Of a stretch of 64,000 nt of DNA, positions 199 to 24,257 are shown in pieces; the stretch's first letter is position 1, and each line of letters begins with the position of its first letter. Under the pieces are notes generated by a model. It saw nothing but the letters and a program-made list of their open reading frames with translations. It ran no database searches and was not told the origin of the DNA. This DNA is from Pelagicoccus sp. SDUM812003 (GTDB lineage Bacteria > Verrucomicrobiota > Verrucomicrobiia > Opitutales > Opitutaceae): the NCBI RefSeq assembly GCF_031127815.1, contig NZ_JARXHY010000010.1, forward strand, positions 1-64,000, in the 5' to 3' direction. Made by a program: the position numbers and the translations under genes.

Positions 199-3100
199 TC
201 ACAGCGAGGTGGCGCCATTCGAGTATTGCTCGCCATCTCGAAGGACGAACACCTTGAAGCGGTAGAAGAGACCGTCCGGGGGCTCGATCCCATGCTCTCG
301 CAAATCCAAGTCCGCCCTCAACTCTCTGTAGCGCGGATCTTCTCCCGCGATGGCATCCAATTCTTCCGGCTCGAGCACCGACCAATTGCGCAGGTCTCTG
401 CTGAGCTCCAGCAACACCCTGACTTCGTCGCTGAGCGCTTCACGATAGCGAATGGAGAGCGCGGTCTTTTCGCTATTCGTCCATTCAAACCGAGGAGGCG
501 TCTCGTGCGTGAAAGGATCCAGCCCGAGGGCGTATTCCACGATGTTCGAGAGCCCGTCACCATCGGGGTCGGAGCTGCGATCCACCTTGCCCTGCAGGGC
601 GCTCGCCGCCTGGTCGTTCCACCCCCTCAACCAGTTTTCAAACCGGTTGAAGTCGGCAAAGGCGAACTCCAGACGGTCGATCGATGGGCGTTTCTCATAC
701 CAATCTTTCGGAGTCCTCTGAGGAGCGTAAGCGATGGATAGGATGCCATTTTCGGCGAAACGAGAGACGTCGTACCAACGGTCGAGCTCATCGTCGAATC
801 GGGCCGAGGCATACGAAACATACGCTTCCTCCTCCAAGTGAATCTCCAGAACGCTCACTTCGCCGTTTTCCACCTCGCCCGCTCGCAGCGAACTGTCTCC
901 CGCGAAACTCTCGGAGTAATCGATCTCCCACAGCCGGTGGCCATAGGTGGTGATCTTCAAACCGGGCTGGCCGATAGCGCTCGCGAGATCCTCGACAAAG
1001 CTCACCTCCCCTATCGAGCTCACGGCGGTATCCGAGTCCGTGGAGAACACGACATCGTAGCTCCCCAAGTCCTTCGCTGAAACGTTTTCCAACCTCAATT
1101 TGGAATCGCTAGCGCCCTCGATGGCGACTCCATCTTTCCGCCACTGATAAGTCACCTCCTCAACGCAGGTCACCTTGACCAGCAACTCGACGGTCGCTCC
1201 GGGATAGGTTGCATGGTGATAGGGCGACTCCAAGATCTCGATACGTCCGTCCGGCTCTACAGCATCGAGCCAAACCGTAAAGTTCGCTCGATCAGGGTTA
1301 TGCACCTCCACTTCAAGATCAGATAGAAACTCGATCGTCTGCCAATCCTCCCCGAGCACCAACTGTTCAGGACTCGCCTTATGGCCAGACACCTTCGCGA
1401 CAAGCCCCGCATGTTCGGAATCCACTCGAATCCTGCAGCGATGGGCAAAATCCTCGTATGGCTCCCCATCGTCAATCCGCAGCGAGACCCACTCGCGCTC
1501 TTGGCCCAAGCTTGAATGGAGCGTCAAGGAGCTTCCTCCTTTGACGCTGATCGAATCATCCCCCGCTAGACTCATGCTCGTAGAGAATCCGTAGATCGGA
1601 AAGTCGAGCAGGGCATCCACCCCTCCGAAGAGGTAGGGAACCGAAACCGTATCCGATTCATAATTCGTTCCATCCGTATCCGTTATTCGGATATAGAACT
1701 GACCTTGATGATTCTCCACTTCGATGTTTCTATGAAGATCCGCGAAGGACGCCTCCACATCTGCCTTGATAGGAGCGTCTCTGCCGACCCTGAACCAATT
1801 CACCTCCGCACCCGGAGCGGAAGTGAAGGTCGCCCGATAGTTTCTCGAAGCTTCCCGCTCGTCCGCAATGGGCTGCATCAGAAAGCGGGTTCGCTCCCCG
1901 ACGTCGATCGACTGGATCCGATCGATGTACCTCCACTTGTCCAGTCCACTCCGCTTCAGGGAAATGCGAATCCGGTGCGAGCCCTCGCCTACAGTCACGT
2001 ATCCTCGCGTCTTCCATTCCCATTCCAAGTCGCTATCGTCCCAGATCCGCATCGTTTCAGCAGCGCCATCAACCTGTACCGCCCAGATCGAACGCACGAA
2101 TGGCTGTTCGGTATCCAAAACAACGGACGCAGGACCCGTCAGGTCGAACTCGAGCCACAAAGGAGCCTCATCGTAATGCTGGCCGCCTAGGCCTAGGATC
2201 GATCCGTGAGCATCCGTTTCGACCAGCCACCCCGGACTCATTTCAAGATTGCCCACCTGCCAGCCAGGGAAAAGCTCAGCCGCGTCCATCAGAGTGAACA
2301 CTTGCGAACGCGTCTCTCCGTATTCAGATCGAGCGACTAGATAGAAATCGTCCGTACTCGGCATTTGGATACCTTGCAAAGCAAGATCGTAGCTCGTTTC
2401 GCCAACCATAGGCTCCTCGTTTCGGTACCATTGATACTCGAGGTTTCCCTTGCCGATAGCAGGGCAACTCAGATGGGCTGTTTCTTCCGCAACCAAGGCG
2501 GTCCAGATCGCCTGATTATGGAAGGCCGGAGCATCGGTTCTCTCCAGGAGATCCAGCCATGCGCGCCCGCCGTCTGAATACGGCTCCTGACTGCCGGCGA
2601 ACTCCCAAGCGACCAGGTGATCGCCTTCGGGCACGTGGATCGTCTGCCTGACCCAAGCGCCAGTCTCCTTCAGCTGGGCGACCATTCGCTTGCGCTCGTC
2701 TTTTTCGATAGTGCAGGAAAAAACGGGCCCGTCACGCTCGCGCTTCCACCAGAACGAGTAATTCGCGGGTCCGGACAAGGTCGTCGAAGCCGTAGGACTC
2801 AAGAAGCCCGACGACACGCTTAGATCGAACTCGAGCGCGTCCACTCCGTCCTTCGACTCATCCGCTTGTCCGAAAACGTCCGGATGGTAGTTAATATCCC
2901 AGGACAGTCCATCGAAGTCCATGACCTCCGTTTCATCCAAACCAACAAAAACGGATACCGGTTCGCTTCTCGCGACGCCATACAGGTTTCGCGCCTCGAG
3001 TTGATAGAGCCCGGAGTCACTCTGGGTCATTTCAGCAATCTTCAGCAGGCGCTCTTCGCGCCCCTTCAAGGGAACGCCATCCCGATACCATTGATATCGT

Positions 3101-6045
3101 ATCGGTTCGGATCCTGCTTCTAGGCTGAAACTCAGCTGAAACCCGAATCCAGCCTGGACCACCCGCTCGGCCTGCTCTTCCCCCATAGCTAGCAATGGAG
3201 GTTGTCCTCTCTGGCTGACGGCTACGGAGTAGGTCAACCAGTCATCTCCAAAGGGATTCGAAACCTGCACCTGGTAGTCGCCACCGTGCGGCTCTCTGAC
3301 GAAGCCTATCGACAGCGTCGGCCCCGTCTGCTCCGGCAGTTCGCGCCCCTGGAGGAACCACTTGTACGATAGAGGAGGACTGCCCACGTGTGGCGGCGCA
3401 ATCAGCACCGAGTCGCCATACGCCACCTTGATGGTTCTCTCCTCTTCGGAAACCTCCTCGAAGCGGGCAGGCGTCTCGCTGGTCAGCACTTTGAGAAAAT
3501 ACCGCCTGCTCTTCTCCGTTCCGTTTTCATCGCTGACGACAAAGCGATAGATGCCTTCGTCTTCTGGCTCGATCGAATGGAAATAGAGGTTGGCTCCCTG
3601 CTCGCCCTCTATCGGCAGCCCGTCCTTTTCCCAAGACAGAGCGACCTCGCGCTCAGAGTTCGCTTGGTATCTCCCTCCGAAAGAGGCCCATTCGAATGGG
3701 CGTTGTTCAAATCGTCCGCGAATCGCCACCGCGGTCGGCGGTTCGCTCCCCAACTCGTAGGTTCTCAAACGATCGAAGGCGATGGACTCGAGCCCGTTTC
3801 CCTCCTCCGAACTTTGAGATGCGACTATCCTGATCTGGTATCGCTTCGCTTCCGGAAGCGTCAAGGAATAGCTTCTCCAGGCCCCGTCATGGGAGATCCA
3901 AGGCGTTTCTCCGTCGAGCTCCACCGACAGCTCGCGAAACCGCTGCCAATAGTAGCCTTGCCGACTGTCGAAACGCAGCGTTTTCGGTCCCTCGACCACC
4001 AGCCCCAAGGTGTATCGCTTGCCCAGTTCGAAATCAGACGAAGCCACATGCGAGCCGCCTTCGCTCAATCCATCCGTTTCGACGGTCCAGAAGTTCTCCT
4101 CGAACTCGACCACGCTCACCCCCACCGCATCCATGGCCTCCGTCAAAACCGAGCTTACGAATCCGACCTCCAGTCGGAAACTGACCTCCGAGCTCGCCTC
4201 GTCGTTCGTCGCCACCAAGCGGTATTCGCCCTCCTGCCCCGCCTCGACCGATTCGATTCTAAGGCGCCGATCGGTTTGGCCAACCAAAAGCTCCTGCTCG
4301 TGATACCATTGATAGCTCATTTCGGAATCGCTCTCGAACTCGGCCTCGAACTCAGCGTCCTCCCCTTCGAAAACGGCAGCCCTTCGAGCCCCGGTGGATA
4401 CAAGTCGAGGCCGCCGCAATGCGTCCTCTAGGAGCAAAGCCGCATGGAGATTCAAAGCTCCCTTGAATCGTGCCTCCTCCTCCAAATGGTCGAAGCGACG
4501 CGCCGAAAGCTCCAATCGGATCACCCAATCGACGTAGGTTTCCTCTGGATACGTCTGAGCAAGTAGAGCCAAGGCTCCGGAGACCAGGGGCACAGCCATG
4601 GAGGTGCCATCAGAATACGCGTAATCGGAATCTCTGCCATTGTAGGTAGAGAAGATTCCCTCTCCCGGAGCGAACACTTCCACCGTATCCGCTCCATAGT
4701 TGCTAAAGGGAGCAATGTAGCCGCTCGCATCGAGGGCCCCTACCGAAACGACGTTATCGAGCGGATACGCGGCGGGATACACCTTTCGATTTCGATCTCC
4801 GTCGTTACCCGCGGCGGCCGCCACTACGATGCCTCTTCCCTTCGCCCGTATCAACGCATCCTGCTGCAGCTTGGAATCGTCAGGACCGCCGAAGCTGGCG
4901 TTGATCACCGAGACGTTCCGATCGATCGCGTAGTCGACCCCTTCCACCAGGTTTTCGATCGTGCCCAGTCCTTCTTCGTTCAGCATTTTGATGGCGATGA
5001 TATTCGTCGCCCATACGACGCCGGAGATCCCTAACCCGTTGTTGCCGGACGCTCCAAGAACACCCGCCACGTGGGTCCCGTGACCATTGTCATCGAGCGG
5101 GGGTTCATTCGGATCGATCGCATTCCAACCGTATCTATCATCCAAATACCCGTTTCCGTCATCATCAACGCCATTTCCGTCCACCTCTCCGGGATTCAGC
5201 AAAATGTTATCCCGCAGGTCCTCATGCGTTATCCGAATGCCTGTATCCAAAATACCGATCAGCACGTCCTCAGCATCACGAGCGAGCTCCCATGCTTCAG
5301 GAGCGTCGATATCTCCTTCAGGAAACGCATTGTTATTCAGTCCCCACTGGTCCCCTCTCGCAAACGCTGGGTCGTTTGGTTCGACTACCGAAGCGGCTAC
5401 AAGAAAATTCGGCTCGACCAGCAAGCCTTCCACCTGCTCGGAAAGCAGCTCCGCCTGAGCGAAGAGCTCCAAACTCCTCTCCAATCCTACGCTTTCGGAT
5501 TCCAGAACAGCAAAACCGCCCTTTGCTGAATAGCGCAGCACTCTCGTCCCGAGCTCGCGCGCAAGCCATTGCATATCCAATCCATGCTCAGTCTTGACGA
5601 GCAGCTGGTTCGCGACCTTTGCCGATGAGATGCGATTCGAAAGCTCGCCGCCCGCCCCGTCCAGCTGGACCAGGCTTTCCAGTACGACTGCCGAATCAAG
5701 GCTGTCCACCCAAACCAGATCCGCCACGCGCCGGCTCGCCGGCTCACCTTCGCTTTCCCGCTCGACTCGATCCAGAAGCGGGAAGCGTCGCCACGATTCC
5801 CGATTCCAGTCTAGAGATACCGGGCGAAGCTCATCGAGAGGAACCGCTTCACTCGACTCCTCCAGCTCCGACGCCTCCTCCGACCCCGACCCCAACAGCC
5901 GCTCAGCGACCCGTGATTCCGCGATCGATTGCTTTCGCTCCATGTCCGATTCCAGACCGGATCCGAACCGCTGATACGACCAGAAAACGCCCATCAGAAC
6001 GGCGACGAGGAACAAGCGCTTTCGCATGGGGAGGAGCTGAAACAT
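199..6045 (-). CDS. Giant secreted subtilisin-like (S8) protease with Ig-like domains
   Basis: This 1948-residue protein is a predicted exported subtilase. An N-terminal hydrophobic segment (about residues 9-24) is a signal or anchor. Residues about 230-500 form the S8 domain, with catalytic Asp267 (ILDTGI), His322 (NGHGTHVAG), the oxyanion Asn414 (AAGNDGD) and Ser482 (DGTSMAVP). A 'DGNGVDDDGNGYLDD' loop near 289-303 looks Ca-binding. The remaining roughly 1400 residues hold repeated Ig-like modules marked by 'YQWY/YQWR' and 'G.Y....N' motifs, interspersed with beta-rich segments. Near the C-terminus a 'DPDGDGLSNIVEYALGLDP' segment resembles thrombospondin type 3 Ca-binding repeats. The ATG at 6045 has an AAGGAGA site 8 bases upstream. 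It stands alone, divergent from the flagellin gene. The protease family is clear; the substrate is unknown. The Ig modules probably bind surfaces or carbohydrate, which is inference. Confidence 0.9.
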   Translation of the reverse strand: MFQLLPMRKRLFLVAVLMGVFWSYQRFGSGLESDMERKQSIAESRVAERLLGSGSEEASELEESSEAVPLDELRPVSLDWNRESWRRFPLLDRVERESEGEPASRRVADLVWVDSLDSAVVLESLVQLDGAGGELSNRISSAKVANQLLVKTEHGLDMQWLARELGTRVLRYSAKGGFAVLESESVGLERSLELFAQAELLSEQVEGLLVEPNFLVAASVVEPNDPAFARGDQWGLNNNAFPEGDIDAPEAWELARDAEDVLIGILDTGIRITHEDLRDNILLNPGEVDGNGVDDDGNGYLDDRYGWNAIDPNEPPLDDNGHGTHVAGVLGASGNNGLGISGVVWATNIIAIKMLNEEGLGTIENLVEGVDYAIDRNVSVINASFGGPDDSKLQQDALIRAKGRGIVVAAAAGNDGDRNRKVYPAAYPLDNVVSVGALDASGYIAPFSNYGADTVEVFAPGEGIFSTYNGRDSDYAYSDGTSMAVPLVSGALALLAQTYPEETYVDWVIRLELSARRFDHLEEEARFKGALNLHAALLLEDALRRPRLVSTGARRAAVFEGEDAEFEAEFESDSEMSYQWYHEQELLVGQTDRRLRIESVEAGQEGEYRLVATNDEASSEVSFRLEVGFVSSVLTEAMDAVGVSVVEFEENFWTVETDGLSEGGSHVASSDFELGKRYTLGLVVEGPKTLRFDSRQGYYWQRFRELSVELDGETPWISHDGAWRSYSLTLPEAKRYQIRIVASQSSEEGNGLESIAFDRLRTYELGSEPPTAVAIRGRFEQRPFEWASFGGRYQANSEREVALSWEKDGLPIEGEQGANLYFHSIEPEDEGIYRFVVSDENGTEKSRRYFLKVLTSETPARFEEVSEEERTIKVAYGDSVLIAPPHVGSPPLSYKWFLQGRELPEQTGPTLSIGFVREPHGGDYQVQVSNPFGDDWLTYSVAVSQRGQPPLLAMGEEQAERVVQAGFGFQLSFSLEAGSEPIRYQWYRDGVPLKGREERLLKIAEMTQSDSGLYQLEARNLYGVARSEPVSVFVGLDETEVMDFDGLSWDINYHPDVFGQADESKDGVDALEFDLSVSSGFLSPTASTTLSGPANYSFWWKRERDGPVFSCTIEKDERKRMVAQLKETGAWVRQTIHVPEGDHLVAWEFAGSQEPYSDGGRAWLDLLERTDAPAFHNQAIWTALVAEETAHLSCPAIGKGNLEYQWYRNEEPMVGETSYDLALQGIQMPSTDDFYLVARSEYGETRSQVFTLMDAAELFPGWQVGNLEMSPGWLVETDAHGSILGLGGQHYDEAPLWLEFDLTGPASVVLDTEQPFVRSIWAVQVDGAAETMRIWDDSDLEWEWKTRGYVTVGEGSHRIRISLKRSGLDKWRYIDRIQSIDVGERTRFLMQPIADEREASRNYRATFTSAPGAEVNWFRVGRDAPIKADVEASFADLHRNIEVENHQGQFYIRITDTDGTNYESDTVSVPYLFGGVDALLDFPIYGFSTSMSLAGDDSISVKGGSSLTLHSSLGQEREWVSLRIDDGEPYEDFAHRCRIRVDSEHAGLVAKVSGHKASPEQLVLGEDWQTIEFLSDLEVEVHNPDRANFTVWLDAVEPDGRIEILESPYHHATYPGATVELLVKVTCVEEVTYQWRKDGVAIEGASDSKLRLENVSAKDLGSYDVVFSTDSDTAVSSIGEVSFVEDLASAIGQPGLKITTYGHRLWEIDYSESFAGDSSLRAGEVENGEVSVLEIHLEEEAYVSYASARFDDELDRWYDVSRFAENGILSIAYAPQRTPKDWYEKRPSIDRLEFAFADFNRFENWLRGWNDQAASALQGKVDRSSDPDGDGLSNIVEYALGLDPFTHETPPRFEWTNSEKTALSIRYREALSDEVRVLLELSRDLRNWSVLEPEELDAIAGEDPRYRELRADLDLREHGIEPPDGLFYRFKVFVLRDGEQYSNGATSL

Positions 6046-6406
6046 TATGTCAGTCTCCTTTCGCCAAGCCTAGGTGTAAAGCCGATACTAGATTCCAGCC
6101 ACTGCCTAGATAAGACTATCAGCCCACCGGCGCTCCCTACGGATTCCACTCAAACAGATCGCTCGAGAGATTCCCCCTCATGCCCGCCCTTCGCGACATC
6201 GGCCTCCACTCGCTACTCCCCATGCACCAGCCGCTTATAAGCTGTTCGTATACCTGGAACAACCCCAGCTAAAACCGTTTCGATAGCCTCAAGAACCTAG
6301 GTAGATTTCCGATCACCCCTAGTATAACCAACTCACGGAGCGGCCTCTCCATTCGATCAGGCCCGAAGCGACAAGGACGTCGCAGGCGCATCAACAAGGA
6401 AGTCCA
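6046..6406. other. Divergent intergenic region between protease and flagellin genes
   Basis: These 361 bases must hold the promoters of both neighbouring genes. The protease ribosome binding site is at 6054-6060 on the minus strand. The flagellin site AAGGAA lies at 6397-6402, four bases before its ATG. I looked for a sigma-28 type promoter ahead of the flagellin. A TAAAACCG near 6271 has no good -10 partner at the right distance, so no promoter is called. Confidence 0.6.
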
Positions 6407-8914
6407 ATGTCAGTAGTAATCAACTTCAATGGCGCAGCCTCGGCTGCGGCAAACAACCTTCGGCGTAGCAACGCGATGCTGCGCAACAGCCTCAATCGGC
6501 TTTCGAGCGGATCTAAGATCGTATCTCCGGCGGACGACGCTGGCGGGCTCGCCGTTTCCATGAAGATGGAAGCGGCCATCAAGCGATACGCGGCGACCAA
6601 TCAGTCCATCGCCAACGCCAAGTCCTACCTGCAAACGCAAGACGGAGCCCTCGGGACTGCCGCGGCCATGCTCGAGCGCATAAACGAGCTCGCCGTGCTG
6701 AGCGAAGACCCGACCAAGAACGCCTCCGATCGGGAGAGCTACAATACCGAGTTCAAGCAGATCCGAGACGCCTTGAAGGAGATCGAGGACTCCACCTTCA
6801 ACGGAATCCCGCTTTTCCGACAAGATTCGCTTTTCGTCAAAACCCTGGGCGCCTCATCGCAATCCGACATCGAACTGGAGGGGATCGAGCTGAGAGAAAT
6901 CAACCCGCCGCCCTTCGAGCTCATCGAAGACACCTTCTCCAGTTCCGCCAACTGGACCAACGTCAGCGAATACGAACGGACGGCCAACATCGACGGCCGC
7001 ATGGAGCTCGACGGCACCCGATCAAGAGCCCAGTCCATCATCGCTCCCCCCGTCAAAGGGGCCTTCGAGATGAGCTTCGATTTCAAGCTCGATTCGACCA
7101 GCAGCCCGATTTCGGTCTCCTTCGACGGTGACTCCGGCAGCGAGCTGTTCAGTTACTCCTCCAACACCGCGAACAACTCAGCTCGCATCGTCTTCGACGG
7201 AAACGAAACCGCTGAGGTCTACCTGAACGGGGAGCCTAGCCCATCCATCGTCAACACCGGTCTGACGAGACGCTCGGGAAACCTCTACATCGAGCAAGCC
7301 GCCGGCGGAAAGGCTACCTTCGACAACCTTCAGGTCACCAGCGTGCCCTACTTCTCCACGTTCAGCGACACCTTCGACGACCCCAGCCCCTGGACGGACA
7401 CCAGCGCGGGCGGCTCAGCCTCGGTCTCCAGCGGAACGCTCAACCTGGACAGCGCGTCCGGCGACGCTTCCTCGGTGAGAACCGGACCGCTGCAGGGCGA
7501 CATGACCATAGACTTCGACTTCCAGATGGGTTCAACCGACAAGGAGCTGAAAGCCTTCCTGGGTGGCGAGGAGGTCTTTGCGTTCTCCGGCGACACCGCC
7601 GCCAACTCCGCTCGCATCGTCTATCGAGAATCGACCAATACCGCCGCTGTCTACCTGAACGGCAGCTCATCCGCTAGCCAATACTCCTTCAACCTCCCCT
7701 ACGAACTCGGTCCGCTCAGCTTTCAGCAGGAAACCGGCGGAGGAACGACCACCGTCGACAACCTGAGCGTCACCAACGACGCCGCAACGCCTTTCGCCGA
7801 CATAAATCGGGACTTCTCGGAATCCGAAAACTGGACGGATCAAAGCGTGCTGCCTAACGCGGAGGTCTCGGATGGGGAGCTGAAGCTCGACCCATCGATC
7901 GCCATCGCCAGATCCGACTTCAGCCTGTCTGGAGCCTTCGAGCTGGATTTCGACTTCAAGCTGGCCGACACCCATAGCCCACTGCGGGTCAGGCTGGGAA
8001 ATGCCCCCGGCGAGGAGCTCTTCTCCTTCGACAGCGACACCAGCAACCACTCGGCGAAAGTCGTCTTCGACGGAGTCAGCGCCGCGAACGTCTACCTCGA
8101 CGGCTCGCCCACTCCCACCGCCACGCTCACCGGTCTCACCAGCAACTCCGGAAGCCTTTCCTTCGAGCATTCCACCGGCGGCACCACCACCCAGATCGAC
8201 AACGTGAACATTGTATCCACAGAAGGAACACCTTTGTTTACGACCATCACCGAGTCGTTTGACTCACCCTCCACAGTGAGCACCGGCGCCGTCACACCAA
8301 ACGTATCCGTGAGCGCTGGACAACTGAGGCTCAACAGCAAACCGAGCGCGGCGGAGCTCACGCCTACCGTTAGCGGCGCATTTCACATGGAGTTCGACCA
8401 TCAGAACGGGAGCGACGAAGCGAAGCTCGACGCGACGATCGGAAGCTCCAGCAACCGCGTGTACAGCTACCGCAACGACACGGACCTGCAAGAGGTCGAG
8501 CTCGAGCTCAGCCAGAGCAGCACGCCTTCAAAGGTGCGCTTCACCCACGCGTCAGGGGCCGGTCAAACCACCGTGGACAATCTGCTCATAGTGGCCCGTT
8601 CGAACTACGAGGCCGTAGCGACCGCGGACGATCTCAGTATCCTTTCCATCGATACCATAAAAGGAGCTCTGGAAGAAATCGCGACCTACCGAGCGCAAAA
8701 CGGGGCCCAGCAGAGCCGGCTGGATTTCACTGCGAACCAGATCTCAGCCAATGTAGAAAACCTGAACTCCGCCAACAGCCGCATCGTCGATGTCGACATA
8801 GCGGAGGAATCCACACGGCTCGCCAGAGCGAACATCCTAGCCCAAGCCGGGGCGTCGATGCTGCAGCAAGCCAACGCCGCTTCGCAGATCGCCCTGAAGA
8901 TCCTCGCAGCCTAA
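6407..8914 (+). CDS. Flagellin with four tandem beta-sandwich repeats in the variable region
   Basis: This is an 835-residue flagellin, the filament subunit of the flagellum. Residues 1-160 match the conserved flagellin N-terminal helices (NLRRSNAMLRNSLNRLSSG, then PADDAGGLAVS). Residues 740-835 match the C-terminal helices (NLNSANSRIVDVDIAEES, ending in QANAASQIALKILAA). Ordinary flagellins are about 270-550 residues. Here the central D2/D3 region is replaced by four related segments of about 123-148 residues (about 171-315, 316-462, 463-609, 610-732). Each begins with 'F..F....W/F' and contains 'G.FE.DFDFKL', 'ELFSF.SDT.N.SARIVFDG', 'VYLNGS' and 'G..TT.DNL.V'; the fourth is degenerate. The segments look like jelly-roll carbohydrate-binding or LamG-like folds. 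No flagellar export or motor genes are nearby, so it is an orphan copy. An AAGGAA site precedes the ATG. The flagellin call is secure; the ligand of the repeats is unknown. Confidence 0.93.
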   Translation: MSVVINFNGAASAAANNLRRSNAMLRNSLNRLSSGSKIVSPADDAGGLAVSMKMEAAIKRYAATNQSIANAKSYLQTQDGALGTAAAMLERINELAVLSEDPTKNASDRESYNTEFKQIRDALKEIEDSTFNGIPLFRQDSLFVKTLGASSQSDIELEGIELREINPPPFELIEDTFSSSANWTNVSEYERTANIDGRMELDGTRSRAQSIIAPPVKGAFEMSFDFKLDSTSSPISVSFDGDSGSELFSYSSNTANNSARIVFDGNETAEVYLNGEPSPSIVNTGLTRRSGNLYIEQAAGGKATFDNLQVTSVPYFSTFSDTFDDPSPWTDTSAGGSASVSSGTLNLDSASGDASSVRTGPLQGDMTIDFDFQMGSTDKELKAFLGGEEVFAFSGDTAANSARIVYRESTNTAAVYLNGSSSASQYSFNLPYELGPLSFQQETGGGTTTVDNLSVTNDAATPFADINRDFSESENWTDQSVLPNAEVSDGELKLDPSIAIARSDFSLSGAFELDFDFKLADTHSPLRVRLGNAPGEELFSFDSDTSNHSAKVVFDGVSAANVYLDGSPTPTATLTGLTSNSGSLSFEHSTGGTTTQIDNVNIVSTEGTPLFTTITESFDSPSTVSTGAVTPNVSVSAGQLRLNSKPSAAELTPTVSGAFHMEFDHQNGSDEAKLDATIGSSSNRVYSYRNDTDLQEVELELSQSSTPSKVRFTHASGAGQTTVDNLLIVARSNYEAVATADDLSILSIDTIKGALEEIATYRAQNGAQQSRLDFTANQISANVENLNSANSRIVDVDIAEESTRLARANILAQAGASMLQQANAASQIALKILAA
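6917..8602 (+). repeat. Four in-frame domain repeats inside the flagellin gene
   Basis: The repeats start near 6917, 7352, 7793 and 8234 and encode about 123-148 residues each. They are diverged at the protein level: repeats 1 and 3 are closest, sharing 'GAFE..FDFKL' and 'AR/AKIVFDG...VYLNG/DG', and repeat 4 is shortest. They are old domain duplications, not recent DNA-level tandem copies. Confidence 0.8.
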
Positions 8915-12403: not shown

Positions 12404-13057
12404 CTATTCGCCACCGCCGGGCACGCCCTGTCGCAGCTTCATGGCGGCTTCGGTGCGGGTGCGCACGTGCAGTTTGCGATAGCAGTTTCTCAGATGCCAG
12501 TGCACCGTTTCGGAGGTAACGCAGAGCTTGGCCGCGATTTCCTTGTTGGTGAAGCCCTTCGCCACGTGCTCCAAAACCTCGCGTTCCCGAGCGGAAAGGC
12601 TATCGACGTCGCTCGCCACCTGAGCCTCCTGACGAAAGTAGGAGATGACCTTGCGGGCGATGCCCACCGACATCGGCACCCCGCCGCGGTAGGCGTCGCG
12701 GATGGCTGCCTTCACCTGATCGGGCGACGAGCGTTTGAGCAAATAGCCGCAGGCCCCTGCCCGCAAGGCTCCAAAGATAAGGTCCGGATCCTGATAGACG
12801 GTGATCATCACGATCTCGATCTCCGGCTCCACTTCCTTCAGCCGAGTGGCGCATTCGATGCCGGTCATATGCGGCATCATGATATCCATCAGCACCACGT
12901 CCGGCTTGACCTTGGGCAGTTTGCGCAGGGCTTCCTCGCCACTGGAGCAGGTGAGGATGCACTCCATGCTCGGCTCGAGGTTGATGATCGCTTCAAAGGT
13001 TTCGCGCGTGGTGTCTTGATCTTCAACGATCGCTATTCGGATGGGGCCTTCGCTCAT
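12404..13057 (-). CDS. LuxR/NarL-type response regulator
   Basis: This 217-residue transcription factor has an N-terminal receiver domain (VEDQDTTRE acidic pocket, phospho-acceptor Asp58 in VVLMDIMMP) and a C-terminal LuxR-type helix-turn-helix (LSAREREVLEHVAKGFTNKEIA, then TSETVHWHLRNCYRKL). Its start overlaps the stop of the sensor kinase gene by 4 bases (ATGA arrangement), so the two are translationally coupled and form a cognate pair. Targets are unknown. The adjacent glucan cluster is a plausible regulon by proximity only. Confidence 0.93.
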   Translation of the reverse strand: MSEGPIRIAIVEDQDTTRETFEAIINLEPSMECILTCSSGEEALRKLPKVKPDVVLMDIMMPHMTGIECATRLKEVEPEIEIVMITVYQDPDLIFGALRAGACGYLLKRSSPDQVKAAIRDAYRGGVPMSVGIARKVISYFRQEAQVASDVDSLSAREREVLEHVAKGFTNKEIAAKLCVTSETVHWHLRNCYRKLHVRTRTEAAMKLRQGVPGGGE

Positions 13058-16000
13058 TGCAGGGGGAGTTTAAGAGTCACAACAGTTCCCGAAGGATCGC
13101 CACGCCGCAAAGCGACGCTCCCTCCGAGTTGAGAAAGTCGTTCGCGGATGCTGTCCAAACCATCGTGTCCAGGGTCTGTAGCTTCAGTTTGGATACCGCA
13201 TCCGTTGTCGCAAACGGAAAGCTCCAGCTCGCGATCCTTCGCCCCGATCCGGATCACCACTTCGCTGGCGTGGGCGTGGCGGGCCACGTTGGTCAAAGCC
13301 TCCTTGTAACATAGAAACAAGGTGTGGCGCACGCGAGAGGTCAGCGGCTCCTCCGGAAGGTTCTCGTCCACATCGAAACGGCAACGCACATCCGCCAGCT
13401 CCAAAAACTGCTGGGCGTAGGAGGTGTAGTAGCTGACGAATGAAGAAATCGAGTCGTAGCGCGGGTTCACCGCCCAGACGATTTCATCGAGCGACATCAC
13501 CAAATGCCTCACCTTGTCTGAAAGCCGCGAGAGGTGATCCTCTCGTTTTTCGACCGGCAAGCGTTGCGCCGCCGCCAGCGTGCCCAATAGTCCGACCTCC
13601 GTCAGCCCTGCTCCCAATTCATCGTGCAAGTCGTAGGCCAGTCGCGAGCGCTCCCGATTCAGGGCCTCCTCCTGCTCGGCATGGTGGCGCTCCTCCAATG
13701 CCGCTTCCAGCTGACGGCCTCGGATGGCCACCTGACGCTGCAGAGCCTTGATCCAGAGCAAGGCCAGCAGAAGCACCACGCTCAAGGCTCCGATAAGCGT
13801 CAGCAAGCGCGGCATCGTCCACCACGGGGGCGTCTGAAGCACGAGCGCATCCGTGGCCGCCCCGAGCAGCAGCTCGAAGCTCTCGATCGGTTCATTGAGT
13901 GCCCGATTGCCACCGACCCCCAAGTAAACCCCTGTCAGTAGTAGGCGACTTCCAACTTCAAACGGCCTCAGCGAGTCAGGCGATGCGCTAACGCTCGCGG
14001 AAAACACGTCGCCCTGCCCTCGCAGCTGCAGCGTTTGACGACCGTTCTGATATCCGACGCCGATCAAGTCCGCTTCGACCTTCACCCACGTGGAATCCAA
14101 ATCCTCGTCCAACCAGCGACCCGAATCCAGCTCGACCGCCGTCGGCAGCACCGCCCGTCCCACCTGCCGAGCCAGCGCGTGGGCGAATCTCGGAGCCGGG
14201 CTATCGAATTCAGGAAAACCGACCACCTCAACTAAGCTTCCCCTTTGGAAGACGCTCTCCTCATCCAACAGACTGACCCGCACCCCGAGGCCATCATCCA
14301 TCAGAAACAGGACCCCCGGTTCGCTATACAAAACCTGCCCCACCAAACTTACCCGCTGAAACAGCCCTCCGTTGGGATCGAAACGCAAGAGCTCGGAAGC
14401 TCGCTTGCGAGGGGCCTCATAGAGGTCCTTGGGAGCGGGATGAACCAGACTGATCTCCGCGGAGTTGAGTTCGATTTTCCCCACCTCAACTCGCCTGCTC
14501 TCCACATCCCAGAAGGCCCGCAAACAGCCACGGAGCCGCACCATGGCATTGAGCCAAAGCGGATCGGGCTCCCCCTCCAGTCCGATAACCAGCGCGCCGG
14601 CTCGCGAACGGAGCGTCATCGAGCGCTCATCGAGCGAAAGCACGTAGCCTTCGATCTCCACGTATTGACTGTGCAAGCTACCGTTGATCAGTTCCTCCCG
14701 TGTGGCCTCGATCGGATCCGGCATCACGCCCGCGCCTAGCCGTCTCATGGCAGTCGCGTTGACGATCGGCGAAAACTCCCCCGCTTCCACCACGCCGTCG
14801 ACCTCCACGAGATCGCCCAATTCGATGTCGTCGGGCCGCAATTGATTCAGATCGACGAACATCGCTCGCTCCTGGTCTTGAATCACTACAGCGTATCCTC
14901 CGGGTATCGGATTTATGACTACACCTCGAAGCGTTACCTCGTATCCAGATTCCAACGTCTCCTTGTCCATACGCTCGATCTGGGCAATCGGCGTAATCCC
15001 TTCCGGAGAGCCCGTTGCCCCAAGGACCTCGATCTGAGAAGCGTTCTGGACAAGCACGCTTGCTGCCACCCGCTCTCCGCTCATAGCGATGCCCGGCGCG
15101 AGTACGCCCCGGGCCCGGACCTTGCGACCGATCAGCTCCTCTGCAGGAAGCTCCGACCAGTCCGCGACGTCCACCCGAGCCTGACCGAGTACCGACGCTA
15201 AAATCAGAAATCCGCTGTTCGCGTTCTGTTTGCTCAAACGCAGTACGCTTCCCTCCACCTCAGCCAAAGTCATGCCTTGATCGTCCTCGAGGACTTGCCC
15301 CGCCATCAGTTGAGGAAGCGTTCGATGCTCAAACCCAGCTCCGTCCTCCACCGAAACGGTCAACGAAGCGGGTCCCAAAAACAAGCGGCTTCCATCGTCG
15401 GACAAAAGAAAGAAATCATAGTCGCCCACCCGATCGATGGTCAGATACCCTTCGAAGGACATCCCCACGAACTCCTGTCGTTGACTTTTCGATACATCGA
15501 AATCTTCGACCCATCCGTTCTCATCGGGCACGAGGCTGCCCATGCTCGCCGGCAAGCTCCACCACTCCCTAAAGTAGGATCGATACCGAAGCCCAGAAAC
15601 CTCCTCGCCATCTGCCCCAACCGCACTGAGCCAGTTCGCGGGAATCGACTGGCGAGGCAACTCCGGCCCCTGAATCTCCACGGAAAGCCCCGGTTCCCCG
15701 ATAGCATTGAACCATTCAACGCGGATCGGATGGACTCCGGCTTCGAGGGCGAGAGTCGCCGTTTGCTCAACCTCGCCGTGGAGTCCATCGTTGTCGACCA
15801 ACGCGAGCCGAGTCAATTCGTAACGTCCTCCGTGGTCGATCAACACTCCCGTACCCTCAATTTCGATACGGTCTCCCAGATCGATTTCCTCCCCACCCCA
15901 ATCCAAGGAGAGTTCCACCGCCTCTTCCTCGTCCCCCAGCACCAAGCGTCCCGATTGGGCGTCCACGAATAACACCGTGCCCTCTAGGTCGAACGCGTGC

Positions 16001-16140
16001 CTTTGCGCTTCCGGACGGGCAAGCTGCTTGAGTTGTTCCAACGATTCAACCCTCGCAGCGAAACACTCGAGGGCAAGAGCTCCCGCAAACAATGCGAACA
16101 TCGCTGTCAAAACGAAGCGAAGTGAACGGGAGCGGAGCAT
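13054..16140 (-). CDS. Sensor histidine kinase (HisKA_3 type) with PA14-like and OB-fold-like exported region
   Basis: I chose the ATG at 16140 (1028 residues) because it begins a clean signal peptide (MLRSRSLRFVLTAMFALFAG...); in-frame GTG and ATG codons further upstream would bury it. The exported part of about 770 residues contains a PA14-type half ('HPIRVEWFNAIGEPGLSVEI'), then a second PA14-like unit ending in 'GDYDFFLLSDDGSRLFLG'. It continues with several beta-rich 'L.G.V......VLQD' segments resembling OB-fold nucleic-acid or sugar-binding modules. A transmembrane helix lies near residues 778-800, followed by a coiled coil. The kinase core has phospho-acceptor His in YDLHDELG (about 837) and an ATPase domain with CDNGCGI. 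PA14 domains often bind glycans, so the input could be a carbohydrate (inference). It is coupled to the response regulator and lies 138 bases downstream of the GH71/99 gene, same strand. Confidence 0.9.
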   Translation of the reverse strand: MLRSRSLRFVLTAMFALFAGALALECFAARVESLEQLKQLARPEAQRHAFDLEGTVLFVDAQSGRLVLGDEEEAVELSLDWGGEEIDLGDRIEIEGTGVLIDHGGRYELTRLALVDNDGLHGEVEQTATLALEAGVHPIRVEWFNAIGEPGLSVEIQGPELPRQSIPANWLSAVGADGEEVSGLRYRSYFREWWSLPASMGSLVPDENGWVEDFDVSKSQRQEFVGMSFEGYLTIDRVGDYDFFLLSDDGSRLFLGPASLTVSVEDGAGFEHRTLPQLMAGQVLEDDQGMTLAEVEGSVLRLSKQNANSGFLILASVLGQARVDVADWSELPAEELIGRKVRARGVLAPGIAMSGERVAASVLVQNASQIEVLGATGSPEGITPIAQIERMDKETLESGYEVTLRGVVINPIPGGYAVVIQDQERAMFVDLNQLRPDDIELGDLVEVDGVVEAGEFSPIVNATAMRRLGAGVMPDPIEATREELINGSLHSQYVEIEGYVLSLDERSMTLRSRAGALVIGLEGEPDPLWLNAMVRLRGCLRAFWDVESRRVEVGKIELNSAEISLVHPAPKDLYEAPRKRASELLRFDPNGGLFQRVSLVGQVLYSEPGVLFLMDDGLGVRVSLLDEESVFQRGSLVEVVGFPEFDSPAPRFAHALARQVGRAVLPTAVELDSGRWLDEDLDSTWVKVEADLIGVGYQNGRQTLQLRGQGDVFSASVSASPDSLRPFEVGSRLLLTGVYLGVGGNRALNEPIESFELLLGAATDALVLQTPPWWTMPRLLTLIGALSVVLLLALLWIKALQRQVAIRGRQLEAALEERHHAEQEEALNRERSRLAYDLHDELGAGLTEVGLLGTLAAAQRLPVEKREDHLSRLSDKVRHLVMSLDEIVWAVNPRYDSISSFVSYYTSYAQQFLELADVRCRFDVDENLPEEPLTSRVRHTLFLCYKEALTNVARHAHASEVVIRIGAKDRELELSVCDNGCGIQTEATDPGHDGLDSIRERLSQLGGSVALRRGDPSGTVVTLKLPLQ

Positions 16141-16278
16141 GAAGGTTGCGAACTCTGGGAGCACTCTTAGCAAGGGGGGGTAAACGAAGGGTGAAACGGG
16201 GTAATTACGAGAAACGATCATCACCCCAAAGGCCACGCCTGTCGAAGAAAATGAGCCTGAAATCCGTTCGGGAGCGCA

Positions 16279-17475
16279 CTATTTCTGGGAGAGCGCCTCC
16301 CGATCCAGAACCTCGCGAGCGCGTCGGAGGTCGCCGCGAGCCAGGGCGATAGAGGCCTCCTCCAATCGGTCCGTATTCGCCCCTTCACGACGCAACTGGA
16401 GCAGTTTATAAGGCAACCTCAAATCGGCCGATCGAATCAGAGCGGCTCCAGCATCCTGCCCCTTGAGTCGTTTCTGCAGGTACTCCAAGTCGCGGTATCC
16501 AAACTCGACGCTTGGTTCGATCGCAGTGCCTTCTCCCCAATCATTCCAAGTCACGAGCTGGATAATAGGAGCCTGGCTATCCAGAGCCAGGTCCAGTGTT
16601 TGGCGAAAGGTTCGCCCATTGTCGTCCGGAATGCTCCCCCAACTCCTGCCCACGCCCGCTTGCTCGTAAAAGTCCACGAAGCGTGGAAAGGCAGCGGGGA
16701 TGCTGTGGGGCCATTGCTGGGACTCCGCTTGAAATCGCTCGACATAGGCGATGCCCTCTGAGGGAATCGGCCAATCGAACGCCCCTATCGCCGCGGTACG
16801 TTTGTGATGCTCGCTGAAGTAAGCGACCGGCATCGCCAGCTTCTGCAAACTGGAGCTCCACTCCGAATCGCTCAGACCATCGAGCCCGAAGGAAAGCAAA
16901 ACCGGAGCTCCATCGAGGTCCAAGTAGCTTTCCTTGGAAAACCAGTTTCGCGCGAGCCACTCGATCTCGGAAACGGCGTGGGAAACTCGCTCCGTTTCAT
17001 CGAGCAAGTCCTCGTCAACCAGAGCGGAAATGGTCTGATCCTCGTAGCAAATAGCAAAGGTCATGCCCAGTCTCTCCACCTGACGCACGAGCTCCACGCT
17101 GGCCCGATGGAGCTGGGGATAGTCTCGAAAATCTGATAGACCATACCAGTCTATGATCACCCCATCGACGCCAGCTAGCTTCATCAGAAGTAGGTGATAT
17201 TCCAATACATGCTCATCGGAGGAATCATAAGGTCCAATCAAGGGCCGAAAGTGAGACGCGAGCTCGTAGCGTCCGTCCTCCAGTCGATCAGGATTTTGAG
17301 AATTCATCGTCCAGTGCCAGCCCCAATATCCGCTCACCGGCTCGCTTTGATACCAAGGCATATAATGAGCTAGCACTTGCCTATCATTTCTCTCACCAGC
17401 GCAGCAAGCGCCTATCGCCAGCCAACAAAAGACCCCGACAACCAGAGCTCTCAATTTACACTTTTTCGTATTCAC
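16279..17475 (-). CDS. Secreted GH71/GH99-type glycoside hydrolase
   Basis: This 398-residue protein has a signal peptide (MNTKKCKLRALVVGVFCWLAIGACCAG; the Cys pair might also give a lipoprotein). The catalytic domain matches the bacterial GH71/GH99-like group: AHYMPWYQSE, WGWHWTMN, GVDGVIIDWYG and the strongly conserved C-terminal WNDWGEGTAIEPS. GH71 enzymes are alpha-1,3-glucanases and GH99 enzymes are endo-alpha-mannosidases or mannanases. The neighbouring GH87 and GH65 genes favour an alpha-1,3-glucan substrate, which is inference. The start is a GTG at 17475 with no clear ribosome binding site, only about 30 bases after a strong hairpin. It is the last gene of the predicted glucan cluster. 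Confidence 0.85.
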   Translation of the reverse strand: MNTKKCKLRALVVGVFCWLAIGACCAGERNDRQVLAHYMPWYQSEPVSGYWGWHWTMNSQNPDRLEDGRYELASHFRPLIGPYDSSDEHVLEYHLLLMKLAGVDGVIIDWYGLSDFRDYPQLHRASVELVRQVERLGMTFAICYEDQTISALVDEDLLDETERVSHAVSEIEWLARNWFSKESYLDLDGAPVLLSFGLDGLSDSEWSSSLQKLAMPVAYFSEHHKRTAAIGAFDWPIPSEGIAYVERFQAESQQWPHSIPAAFPRFVDFYEQAGVGRSWGSIPDDNGRTFRQTLDLALDSQAPIIQLVTWNDWGEGTAIEPSVEFGYRDLEYLQKRLKGQDAGAALIRSADLRLPYKLLQLRREGANTDRLEEASIALARGDLRRAREVLDREALSQK

Positions 17476-17505
17476 TTTTATATCACGTTCTCACTTCAAC
17501 AAAAG

Positions 17506-17536
17506 AACTCGACGCGCTGTTTAGGCGCGTCGAGTT
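17506..17536 (-). terminator. Strong hairpin between GH87 and GH71/99 genes
   Basis: A perfect 12-bp stem (AACTCGACGCGC / GCGCGTCGAGTT) with a 7-base loop is followed on the minus strand by CTTTTGTTG. It looks like an intrinsic terminator for the operon ending at 17634. The GH71/99 start codon is only about 30 bases further on, leaving no room for a promoter in between. It may therefore act as a partial terminator or mRNA-stabilising hairpin. Confidence 0.7.
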
Positions 17537-17633
17537 CACGACTACAGACCACGGTCCCCCACCCAGAGGAACTGCGGCTTATGCCTTTGATTCGGGGTCC
17601 AAGAAATTCGCTCCATCGATCGCTTCGCGCCCA

Positions 17634-19388
17634 TCAATGGCTTTTCTGGATGGAGAAGGAAGGGGACAGGTTTTCAATGTCTTCGATTCGACTGTCTCGA
17701 ATGATCAAGTCTCCCTGCGCATCGCTTCTTATGAACAAGTCGGCAGCCCCATCGACCCTGATGCCAGAATTGAAAATGCGTACCGATTTCAGACTCGTGT
17801 CCGATAGCGTTCCTTCGCCCTTTTCCGCTCCAGGGGCGACGATGGTGAATCCTTCCGAGATACTATCGCGGATCACCATATCGCGAATCGCCAGGCCGGA
17901 GATACGCTTTCGATCCATACAGATCTGAAAGGAGCCCCGCCAAGCCCAGCCATGGTCGTATCCACCACAGCGCAACAGTTCGTTACCCTCCACCAGCGTG
18001 GTTCCGCTAAAGTTGTTGTCGATACCGCGCTCCGGGTCCGATGTTGGAAAGGTAGTGCTAATCAAGATACCACACCCGGTACCAATGTCGACGAATCGAC
18101 AGTTTTCCACTCGATTGTTCGCTCCTCCGTAAACAGAGGCTCCGTTAGCCAGAAATGTTAGCTGCCCCGTCGAGCGGCGAATCACGTTGTTGCCCGGCAC
18201 CACGCAGTCATCCACGTAGCCCTGATCGAATGCCGCCGGCCAAATCGCGTAGCAATCGTCTCCCGTGCCGCGAGCGCTGCAATTGTCGACAACCGAATCC
18301 GTGGTTCCCACGCAGAAGTTCGTACCATCGGCCAATAGGTTACGGAATCGGCATCCTTCTATCGCAACGCCCCTGCCATTATAGACCCAGACGCCGACTT
18401 TCGTATGCTCTATCCAAATACGCTCAATCGTCGCGTCGCTGCAACCTGAGCCGATAACGCCGTCATTCGCTTCCTGGTCATTCCGGTAGTTGAGCTCTCC
18501 TACAATCGCGAAATCCGCCAGTTGACAATTCTCACCTGTCAGTTTGAAGCGCACGCGCCGATCGGCTTGGCTGTATAAATCTTTATCACCGACAAAGGTC
18601 GTGTGCCACATGCCTGAACCTTGAATACGATCTCCGTCGGTCAACACGATGTCACGCGTGATCTTGAAATCTCCCTCAGGCACAAAAACGCTCGCTCCCA
18701 CGCTACGGGCCTCTTGCAAACAGTCTAGCAAGGCCTGAGTGTCGTCGGTCACGCCATCGCCTTTCGCCCCGAACGCTCGCACGGAGATTGCTCCATCTGG
18801 CTTGGGCAATGGGGCTGGAACAGGTTCCAAATCGACAATATCGACAATGCAGGGCACTCCGTCCGAAATCGATTTCTGTATACGTACGGTATCGCCTATC
18901 TTGATATCCAGACCCTTCACACGCATTTCATCGTAAGCGTTTCTCGGCTTGCCTTTCTCTGGATCATTAGAAAACGGATACACACCATACAGCCACGAAT
19001 TCCGCGAGCTCAGCGATAGGTCGCGAACCGACCTTCCGTTAACATGAAGCTCCACCTCCGATTCGAGTCCGCCTCCCTCTGGAGCGTCCGGCAGGCTAAA
19101 TCGCAGCACGACTCCTTGAGCTTCGATAGTCGCCTCGAACTCCACATAGTCGCCAGCTTCCTGCAACTCGACGTAGCGTTGAGCCGAAGATTCCGTTTCG
19201 ATCGTATGCGGCTGATAGTTCGGCCCGAAGATCGCCCCATTCGTCACCATCGACTCAGCTTCATAACTGACCCATGGGAGTTCAGCTCCTATTTGATCGC
19301 CGCTCGCAAACGCTACGCAATTCGCGACGACGAGGATACCCGCAACGGAAAGCCGCATAGCTCTCTCAAAGTTTCGTTTCGTATTCAT
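17634..19388 (-). CDS. GH87-type alpha-1,3-glucanase (mycodextranase-like), secreted
   Basis: This 584-residue protein has a signal peptide (residues 1-29). Residues about 36-190 form a CBM6/35-like beta-sandwich of the type that precedes GH87 catalytic domains (YEAESMVTNG, GDYVEFEA, VVLRFSLPDAPEGGG, SWLYGVYPF, YDEMRVKG). Residues 200-580 form a right-handed beta-helix beginning ISVRAFGAKGDGVTDDTQ. The likely catalytic acids are Asp354 (LLADGTN), Asp377 and Asp378 (GTGDDCYAIWP). Their +23/+24 spacing equals that of the Asp triad I recall for characterised GH87 alpha-1,3-glucanases. It would cut alpha-1,3-glucan, or mixed alpha-1,3/1,4-glucan, outside the cytoplasm. It starts 6 bases after the GH65 gene. 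Family alternatives are other pectate-lyase-like beta-helix enzymes (GH28, GH55), which lack this N-terminal module. Confidence 0.82.
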   Translation of the reverse strand: MNTKRNFERAMRLSVAGILVVANCVAFASGDQIGAELPWVSYEAESMVTNGAIFGPNYQPHTIETESSAQRYVELQEAGDYVEFEATIEAQGVVLRFSLPDAPEGGGLESEVELHVNGRSVRDLSLSSRNSWLYGVYPFSNDPEKGKPRNAYDEMRVKGLDIKIGDTVRIQKSISDGVPCIVDIVDLEPVPAPLPKPDGAISVRAFGAKGDGVTDDTQALLDCLQEARSVGASVFVPEGDFKITRDIVLTDGDRIQGSGMWHTTFVGDKDLYSQADRRVRFKLTGENCQLADFAIVGELNYRNDQEANDGVIGSGCSDATIERIWIEHTKVGVWVYNGRGVAIEGCRFRNLLADGTNFCVGTTDSVVDNCSARGTGDDCYAIWPAAFDQGYVDDCVVPGNNVIRRSTGQLTFLANGASVYGGANNRVENCRFVDIGTGCGILISTTFPTSDPERGIDNNFSGTTLVEGNELLRCGGYDHGWAWRGSFQICMDRKRISGLAIRDMVIRDSISEGFTIVAPGAEKGEGTLSDTSLKSVRIFNSGIRVDGAADLFIRSDAQGDLIIRDSRIEDIENLSPSFSIQKSH

Positions 19389-19394
19389 ATTTTG

Positions 19395-21710: not shown

Positions 21711-21713
21711 GTG

Positions 21714-23258
21714 TTAGATGCTCGGTTGAGACTTTTCATCTTTGACGCGCAGCATCAGCAACGCTGCCAACACCATGGACGCGCCACCGAGCGCCAAAGC
21801 GAATATGGGTTGTCCGCCAAACAGGGTTCGCACTAGCAATCCCAAGACTGCAGCTGCCAGTATTTGCGGAATCACAATGAAGAAGTTGAACAGGCCCATA
21901 TAGATCCCCATCTTGCGATACGGCACCACACTGCTGAGAATCGCATACGGCAACGTCAGCAGACTGGCCCAGGCGATACCGAGTCCAATCATGGATATGA
22001 TCAGCAGCTTGGGATCGCGAAAGAGATACATCGACGCAAGACCTGCTCCGCCCAAGACGAGACAAACCATATGCGTCTTCACACGGCTGATACGCTTGGC
22101 CATCACCGGAAGGAGAAATGCCACGAGAGCAGCCACCCCGTTGTAGACCGACATCAGCACGCCGACCCAATTGGCTCCCTGATTGTAAGCTACCGACTGC
22201 GGATCGCTGCTGCCGAAGTGGTGGCTGGTCACGGCAGCGGTCGAGTAGATGAAAAAGGAGAACAAAGCGAACCAGGTGAACATCTGGGCCAATGCCAGCT
22301 GCCGCATGGGACCGGGCATGTTGTTAAAGTCATAAATCATCTCGACCAGTCCGCGCTTTTTGCCATTACGGTAGCGCCACGCAGCTAGAAGCTGAAGCCC
22401 GCCATAAGCGCTGAGCCCGAAAGACAAGATAAAGAGCCCCTTATCCCACGAAAGCTCTTCGATCAAAAAACTGAATACAAAACCAATTGCCACCAGGCAG
22501 CTTCCCACGAGAGTGTAAAGCTTCTGGTTCAACTGGATCGCATCGTCACTCGCAGCGTTCTCCTCATCCTTCCCATGAAAGGCCTCCTGCTCTTCAGGCG
22601 AGTACTCCCTCACCGAGAAGATCGTCCAGAGAACGGTGGCTAGATAGACGATCCCCCCGAGGCTGAAGGACCATTTCACCGAATCCGGAACAACTCCTTC
22701 GGGAGCGGTGTTCGCGATATTGAATACATTGGTCAGCAACCAGGGCATGAGAGAGCCAACCACCGAGCTCGCTCCGATGAAAAAGGTTTGCACCGCGAAG
22801 CCTGCTGTTCGCTGCTCGTCTGGAAGCATGTCGCCCACGAACGCCCTCATCGGCTCCATGGTGATGTTGATCGATGCGTCCAACATCCAAAGCATGCCTG
22901 CGGCGAACCAGAGCGTCGGCGAGTTTGGCATGACCAGCAGTCCCAGCGAAGCGAGCAGCGCTCCGATGAGAAAATACGGTTTTCGGCGACCGAGCCGGTT
23001 CCAGGTCTTATCCGACATGTATCCGACAATTGGTTGCACGACCAAACCTGTCACCGGTCCCGCAATCCAAAGAATGGGGATGTCGTCGATCGCCGCGCCG
23101 AGCGTTTCGAAGATGCGACTGACGTTGGCGTTCTGCAAGGCGAAGCCGAACTGGATGCCCACATAGCCGAAGCTCATATTCCAGAGCTGCCAGAAGTTCA
23201 GGAGCGGCTTGCGTCTCGCAGGCGCCGCCGATTGAGGGAGGACCGCGGACTTAGACAT
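21714..23258 (-). CDS. MFS sugar transporter (GPH/SLC45-like)
   Basis: This 514-residue inner-membrane protein has about 12 hydrophobic helices. It resembles the disaccharide importers of the GPH/SLC45-like MFS branch found in operons for maltose-type sugars: [22 protein letters not shown] at the N-terminus, [19 protein letters not shown], and the loop motif [15 protein letters not shown] between helices 2 and 3. A charged cytoplasmic loop around residues 215-240 separates the two halves. It is predicted to import the oligosaccharide released by the extracytoplasmic hydrolases. Its start overlaps the end of the HAD-phosphomutase gene by 8 bases and it ends 3 bases before the GH65 gene, so co-translation is likely. 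Confidence 0.9.
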
Positions 23259-24078: not shown

Positions 24079-24257
24079 GAAATCTGTTTGATTTGAAAAA
24101 TCGGAAAAAGGAGGATCTCGCAGCACGCCTAAGCTGCGATCGTCTACGCAAAGGCAAGGCTCCACCTCGAGCGGGTCGGAGCCACGCCAAGCGTATTTAT
24201 ACTTCGTATACAGGATGCGTACGGAGAACGATGACTCCGCACACATCGGCTAGCTAT

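Follow-up and report, generated by a model that had tools for sequence, protein, structure and literature searches.

The 64,000-nucleotide stretch of Pelagicoccus sp. SDUM812003 DNA analysed here (hereafter the window) raises the question of what use a flagellin may have when its exposed region is greatly enlarged and its gene stands by itself. A sequence-only reading had taken this gene for a filament subunit with normal D0/D1 ends, some 560 residues of tandem repeats between them and an accessory role, perhaps swapped in under some conditions. The gene (Table 1) opens with ATG, is free of internal stops, and its ends were borne out by Pfam, where Flagellin_N (PF00669: residues 5-139, E 1.1e-23, 84.3 bits, cut-off 26.6) and Flagellin_C (PF00700: residues 748-833, E 4e-19, 69.2 bits, cut-off 23) both passed their cut-offs; in a separate comparison with paralogues, Flagellin_N scored 89.7 bits against 87.9-91.7 bits in the three plain flagellins of the host. 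Of 96 near-invariant arm columns 85 are retained, with deviations at 4 of 58 (N arm) and 7 of 38 (C arm). Eleven deviations are a high number beside plain flagellins (mean of about 1; maximum 3 in the N and 9 in the C arm), though a single-domain relative (L050) likewise deviates at 11. In the tree, the arms of the window flagellin sit on a branch of length 1.3, as compared to a median of 0.13.

The isolation of the gene, also part of that reading, holds for the window genes scanned with Pfam, among which no flagellar cluster surrounds it. A conserved gene neighbourhood was considered and dropped, as the neighbouring NDH-2 gene was the only window query that matched in three relatives (67-68% orthologues); the other nine, flagellin included, gave no match in the 16-17 kb around the NDH-2 orthologues. 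The window also encodes a CheB-CheR-PAS-histidine kinase fusion protein (54000-57296, minus strand) and, at 199-6045 (minus strand), a 1948-aa subtilase with about six Ig-like domains, the C-terminal part of which has partial matches in many proteins of the host genome and the genus. A further stretch of the minus strand (12404-27956), carrying genes for a LuxR-type response regulator, a histidine kinase, GH99, an alpha-1,3-glucanase, GH65, a sugar transporter, a HAD hydrolase and a TonB plug protein, is likely a locus for alpha-glucan use.

The host assembly (5.75 Mb, 88 contigs, 97.5% complete) holds four flagellins besides the window gene. A plain flagellin, the presence of which the sequence-only reading had left to be looked for, was found three times (271 and 273 aa, about 0.9 kb apart, and 282 aa, adjoining flgK, flgL, fliW and csrA), and the fourth (L012, 426 aa) carries one ConA-like domain; beyond this paralogue and the window gene, the domain profile had no match in the host genome at E ≤ 0.001. 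Since plain flagellins are encoded elsewhere in the genome, the proposal that the window flagellin is an accessory subunit gains support. Its codon adaptation (0.59; two plain C1 flagellins 0.68-0.72, the plain C3 flagellin 0.53) says little for or against such a role, because the C1 flagellins themselves set the scale and the plain C3 flagellin reaches only 0.53. Candidate fused double flagellins in relatives (open frames of 637-887 aa) were rejected, the DNA showing separate genes of 269-275 aa.

Table 1. Features of the flagellin locus in the window, and flagellin-like genes with eroded arms in related genomes.
Feature	Position	Strand	Basis or remark
Flagellin gene	6407..8914	+	835 aa; ORF and Pfam
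N-terminal D0/D1 arm, residues 1-139	6407..6823	+	PF00669; helical in the full-length model, which is poor
C-terminal D1/D0 arm, residues 748-833	8648..8905	+	PF00700
Repeat R1, ConA-like by similarity to R3	6914..7348	+	Sequence and profile
Repeat R2, ConA-like by similarity to R3	7349..7783	+	Sequence and profile
Repeat R3, ConA-like domain	7784..8224	+	Single-domain model, pLDDT 90.7
Repeat R4, shortened copy, parts of second half missing	8225..8605	+	Alignment, profile, full-length model
Sigma28-like site TCAAG-N15-CCGAT	6289..6313	+	Differs from TAAAG-N15-CCGAT at one position; 118 nt ahead of the start codon
Leader hairpin GCGAC-AAGGAC-GUCGC, GGA in hexaloop (CANGGANG type), putative CsrA site 1	6368..6383	+	
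Ribosome-binding site AAGGAAG, second GGA, putative CsrA site 2	6396..6402	+	23 nt past first
Eroded-arm flagellin-like gene, genome G185	L191	+	
Eroded-arm flagellin-like gene, genome G838	L192	+	
Eroded-arm flagellin-like gene, genome G129	L193	-	

The inserted region covers residues 170-733 (about 563 aa, in keeping with the length first read) and divides into four repeats (R1 170-314, R2 315-459, R3 460-606, R4 607-733), with pairwise identities of 36-43% among R1-R3 and of 22-32% between these and R4, which is about 20 aa shorter. Where four beta-sandwich domains had been proposed, three full ones stand, and the fourth is a shortened copy modelled with low confidence. The full-length model of the protein is poor (pTM 0.36) and was used solely for counting beta stretches, of which there are four besides the helical arms. 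A profile built from 12 domain copies matched the window ORF four times (E 5.6e-53, 8.7e-51, 4.4e-49 and 4.0e-30); these matches are not independent, since R1-R4 themselves supply 4 of the 12 rows, and an independent match (E 3.7e-25) came from the host's 426-aa paralogue, which lies outside the profile. As R1-R4 cluster in a phylogeny of 15 domain copies (moderate support, 89/91), duplication within the window gene is suggested rather than four captures; because of its long branch, R4 has an uncertain position in this tree.

Structure prediction of a single repeat (R3, modelled alone, with 12 native copies in the alignment), by which the sequence-only reading was to be checked, yielded a lectin-type beta-sandwich with 13 strands and no helices of 4 or more residues (pLDDT 90.7, pTM 0.86). 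A Foldseek search of the PDB with the R3 model gave 218 matches (E ≤ 0.001); putative glycosyl hydrolases, sialidases and glucanases head the list, in which a DUF1080 protein ranks 6th and CBM66 38th. VIA-align placed the model near 3imm (Z 14.4, 135 aligned, 2.7 A), the CBM66 structure 4azz (Z 13.7, 127 aligned, 2.3 A) and the Pisum arvense lectin 5t7p (Z 13.0, 143 aligned, 2.8 A), its best 50 matches (down to Z 12.7) including lichenases, ERGIC-53, CBM66, legume lectins and a galactocerebrosidase; flagellins were absent among the best 50 matches listed by either program, and in these rows the outcome named by the sequence-only reading as its refutation, repeats with an ordinary D2/D3 fold, did not turn up. 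By this high-confidence model R3 is a concanavalin-A-like (ConA-like) lectin/glucanase beta-sandwich, a fold that R1 and R2 would share by their similarity to R3, and that R4 may share by its profile match (its confidence in the full-length model being low). ConA-like domains have their N and C termini close together, so that several of them can be inserted in series in the D1 loop.

The structural matches of the R3 model do not discriminate which activity, if any, the domain would have. With CBM66, DUF1080 (3-keto-disaccharide hydrolase) and Laminin_G_3 the window domains have the fold and weak profile matches in common, and they differ in being shorter (127-158 aa as cut) and borne on a flagellin. 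PF06439 reached 22.4 bits in the whole window protein, below its cut-off of 26.6, and among the 12 domain copies three match PF06439 (best 1.5e-8) and three Laminin_G_3 (best 2.6e-5), R3 itself having a Pfam match to neither. Against PDB sequences, a profile of five copies found no chain at E ≤ 1, and the one of 12 copies stayed at chance level, with eight chains at E ≤ 10, of which none bears the name flagellin. An enzyme reading was tried on account of the FELDFDF strand, which we take to resemble the catalytic pattern of GH16, and rejected: its acidic residues are not kept between copies, and no conserved acidic pair was seen in the ConA-like copies. HExxH, the motif of the flagellinolysin metallopeptidase domain, is absent from the window protein, and none of its Pfam matches (E up to 1) is to a peptidase family. 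No ligand- or binding-site residues could be identified in the domain alignment, the conserved columns of which look structural.

We searched for the domain across 252 genomes of the family. At E ≤ 0.001 the profile found it in 21 of them; 15 pass E < 1e-15, and of these 15, 9 (host included) had supplied rows to the profile. Within the 15, the domain sits in flagellins with good arms in 11 genomes (host included) and in flagellin-like genes with eroded arms in three (G185, G838 and G129). A ConA-like domain (E 1.8e-19) was also seen in genome G162 (L195 797-1231, plus strand), within a protein that is rich in repeats, probably secreted and devoid of flagellin arms. The single-copy domain thus occurs sporadically in flagellins of the family (L012, L066, L067, L069, L074, L077, L086, L112, L133, L050 and L177). 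These share with the window flagellin the insertion point (after residue ~163) and, where leaders were inspected, a GGA leader hairpin; they differ from it in having one copy instead of four and, mostly, less diverged arms. A second flagellin with more than one copy was not found in the 252 genomes by a search that scored up to 15 first-look candidates per genome, which diverged copies may escape. Within the genus, the profile search gave one copy each in G089, G110 and G158 and zero in G019, G063, G127 and G144, and the four-repeat form was not found in these seven other genomes; plain BLAST overlooked the three single-domain flagellins, its negatives being weak and the profile search the better guide. 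The flagellin pattern filter missed the 421-aa gene of G110 (added by hand), and the 282-aa C3 type of other genomes lies outside its design. Rather than an isolated curiosity, the window gene is the far end of a series within the family.

Beyond the family, matches thin out. A sample of 372 genomes of the order gave five at E ≤ 1e-5 (that of G242 being weak and outside the family), and a sample of 387 genomes of the phylum gave nine at E ≤ 0.001, strong in the two family members only; two weak domain matches fall in a single 753-aa non-flagellin ORF of G106. No flagellin arm was detected at E ≤ 0.001 within 1.5 kb on each side of the matches at L153, L178-L184, L195 and L196-L204. Other outer domains do occur in the family, as a 363-aa flagellin of G004 (L037 1501-2589, plus strand) carries a different insert, unmatched by the profile.

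In spite of standing alone, the window gene is probably wired like a flagellin, on account of its leader hairpin, ribosome-binding site and sigma28-like site. A GGA-loop hairpin with at least 4 pairs was found in 136 of 143 distinct flagellin leaders (at least 5 pairs: 129/143), as against 72 of the 347 leaders (42/347) that precede mechanically located ORFs of 250+ aa and 20% of shuffles (8%); the 143 derive from 154 flagellin ORFs (short or duplicate leaders left out), and the leader relatives, being the best 80 of 204, are biased to flagellins resembling the window gene. Over 106 distinct 22-mers (drawn from 148/150 flagellin leaders), the five stem positions pair at 75-82% in register, with GC, CG, AT and other pairs interchanging, and in five shifted registers 20 of 25 pairing values lie below 50% (highest 80%). 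Examples stand just upstream of 8124 and 9848 in L011 and upstream of 8609 in L012 (all minus strand); the folding energy of the window leader alone is not significant (z -0.99). We consider this covarying hairpin a likely CsrA site in Verrucomicrobiota.

A GGA hexaloop of the CANGGANG type has been described for CsrA and the Campylobacter flaA leader (PMC4894983, in the part available), and the hexaloop of the window leader fits this type; the leader also fits the CsrA-FliW-Hag circuit of Bacillus as presented in the accessible part of PMC6529632, a GGA-loop hairpin being joined by a GGA at the ribosome-binding site, with csrA (82.8 bits, cut-off 70.1) and fliW (120.4 bits, under its cut-off of 130, though the sole kind of match for its gene) in the genome. 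The sigma28-like site, a pattern picked after inspecting own and related leaders, occurs with up to one mismatch in the -145..-105 zone of 49 of 150 flagellin leaders (0.8% of shuffles; 4/150 leaders at a control position) and exactly in 19 of the 150, the window leader not among these; the host paralogues of 273, 426 and 271 aa show 0, 2 and 3 mismatches, respectively. Such flagellin-type signals would fit co-expression at least as well as conditional swapping, and so they speak against the idea that the subunit is swapped in, short of refuting it.

The relatives with eroded arms bear on whether the domain matters apart from the filament. Their three genes deviate at 51-71 near-invariant arm columns (11 in the window flagellin) and keep 25-45; plain-flagellin profiles still recognise both arms of the G838 and G185 genes and the C arm only of that of G129. 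Compared with one another, the three are 64-77% identical in the domain (dN/dS 0.18-0.29) and 25-46% identical in the arms (dN/dS 0.30-0.66), whereas in nearly all pairs of other single-domain flagellins the arms are more alike than the domain. The close pair of single-domain flagellins from G163 and G133 has dN/dS values of 0.13 (domain), 0.19 (N arm) and 0.06 (C arm). High synonymous change makes all these values rough (for the pair G110-G158 it reaches saturation, both in the domain and in the C arm), and they rest on relatives, the window gene having no close one. The domain, under purifying selection in the pair G163-G133 and conserved in the three genes with eroded filament arms, thus seems to be selected for itself, at least in the eroded lineage and in that close pair. 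The eroded-arm genes, in the leaders of which no GGA hairpin was seen by eye (start codons being uncertain), could possibly encode flagellin-derived lectins.

We propose, with about an even chance of being right, that the window gene encodes an accessory filament flagellin which displays tandem lectin-fold domains, likely for weak contact with glycans. It would be transcribed from a flagellar late-gene (sigma28-type) promoter, translated under control of the CsrA-FliW type (with CsrA presumably binding the leader), sent out through the flagellar export apparatus, and incorporated into the filament by its D0/D1 arms beside the plain flagellins. With arms that are recognisable and signals of the flagellin type, co-assembly with plain subunits is the simplest reading. 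Each subunit would carry, where D2/D3 would otherwise lie, a string of ConA-like (LamG/DUF1080/CBM66-type) domains, three full and one shortened, which at the filament surface may form a dense multivalent array. Their most probable task would be to engage, weakly and repeatedly, with polysaccharide of algae or particles, or with glycans on the surface of the cells themselves. Glycans are our leading guess because of the fold, the domain's own conservation and the habitats of the genus, for which the available part of PMC10288369 gives seawater, marine sediment and seagrass. We are doubtful about going further, to a filament that in this lineage also serves as a multivalent glycan-binding surface, its domain captured by a flagellin of the family, multiplied to four in this species for higher avidity, and elsewhere turned into the selected part of the gene as the arms decayed, with flagellins a source of secreted lectins.

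The chief rival, itself on the unlikely side, is a mechanical outer layer, in which domains of adjacent subunits, binding no ligand, would pack against one another and make the filament thicker or stiffer for swimming under some conditions. Large flagellins with duplicated outer regions form thick filaments in two marine gammaproteobacteria, for which a mechanical advantage is among the explanations put forward (PMC6248924, in the part accessible), and the want of evident ligand residues in the domain alignment accords with such a layer; on the other hand, the ConA-like fold often serves glycan contact, and a pure packing role fits poorly with purifying selection that persists on the domain where the arms are eroded. 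Improbable, in our estimation, is a flagellin-derived lectin that leaves by the flagellar export route and hardly polymerises: the genes of G185, G838 and G129, with conserved domain and eroded arms, offer a precedent, and the arms of the window gene are fast-evolving, but these arms retain most of their near-invariant columns and score in Pfam near those of the plain paralogues. A decaying duplicate with no present role, to which the long branch of the arms, the shortened R4 and the lack of the four-repeat form in the rest of the genus might point, is very improbable given 835 open codons, an intact leader hairpin and ribosome-binding site, a near-consensus promoter and codon use resembling that of other genes.

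Flagellins enlarged by domain duplication are already known from Oceanospirillales, where Thomson et al. 2018 (PMC6248924) describe large and giant flagellins with tandem DE regions. As far as the accessible text of that source goes, the window flagellin resembles the large ones in its D0/D1 arms, in a duplicated outer region that replaces D2/D3, in having relatives with a single copy and in a duplication inferred to lie within the gene; it differs in carrying four copies (as opposed to two), in belonging to another phylum and, presumably, in the ConA-like fold of its domains, and with 835 aa it is 'large', giant flagellins being defined there as exceeding 1,000 aa. Flagellinolysins likewise hold a folded domain in the variable region of a flagellin, theirs a metallopeptidase with an activity of its own (PMC5595980, part available), as compared to the lectin-fold domains of the window flagellin. 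An F-type lectin domain has been joined to mini-flagellins by engineering (PMC11339370, in the part available), and among the titles and abstract beginnings listed for the open-access literature (subscription journals lay outside the search) no natural flagellin with ConA/LamG-type domains appeared. What seems new is the fold, the copy number and the existence of relatives whose domain is retained as their arms are lost.

Related environmental bacteria form a graded series, in which flagellins bear no domain, one or four, or the domain persists beside eroded arms, and this series lets one ask whether the outer domains of flagellins serve mechanically or as functional cargo. Should the domains bind glycans, cargo-bearing flagellins would extend past proteases to lectin-fold domains, and the filament of this Pelagicoccus would be one built for multivalent display.
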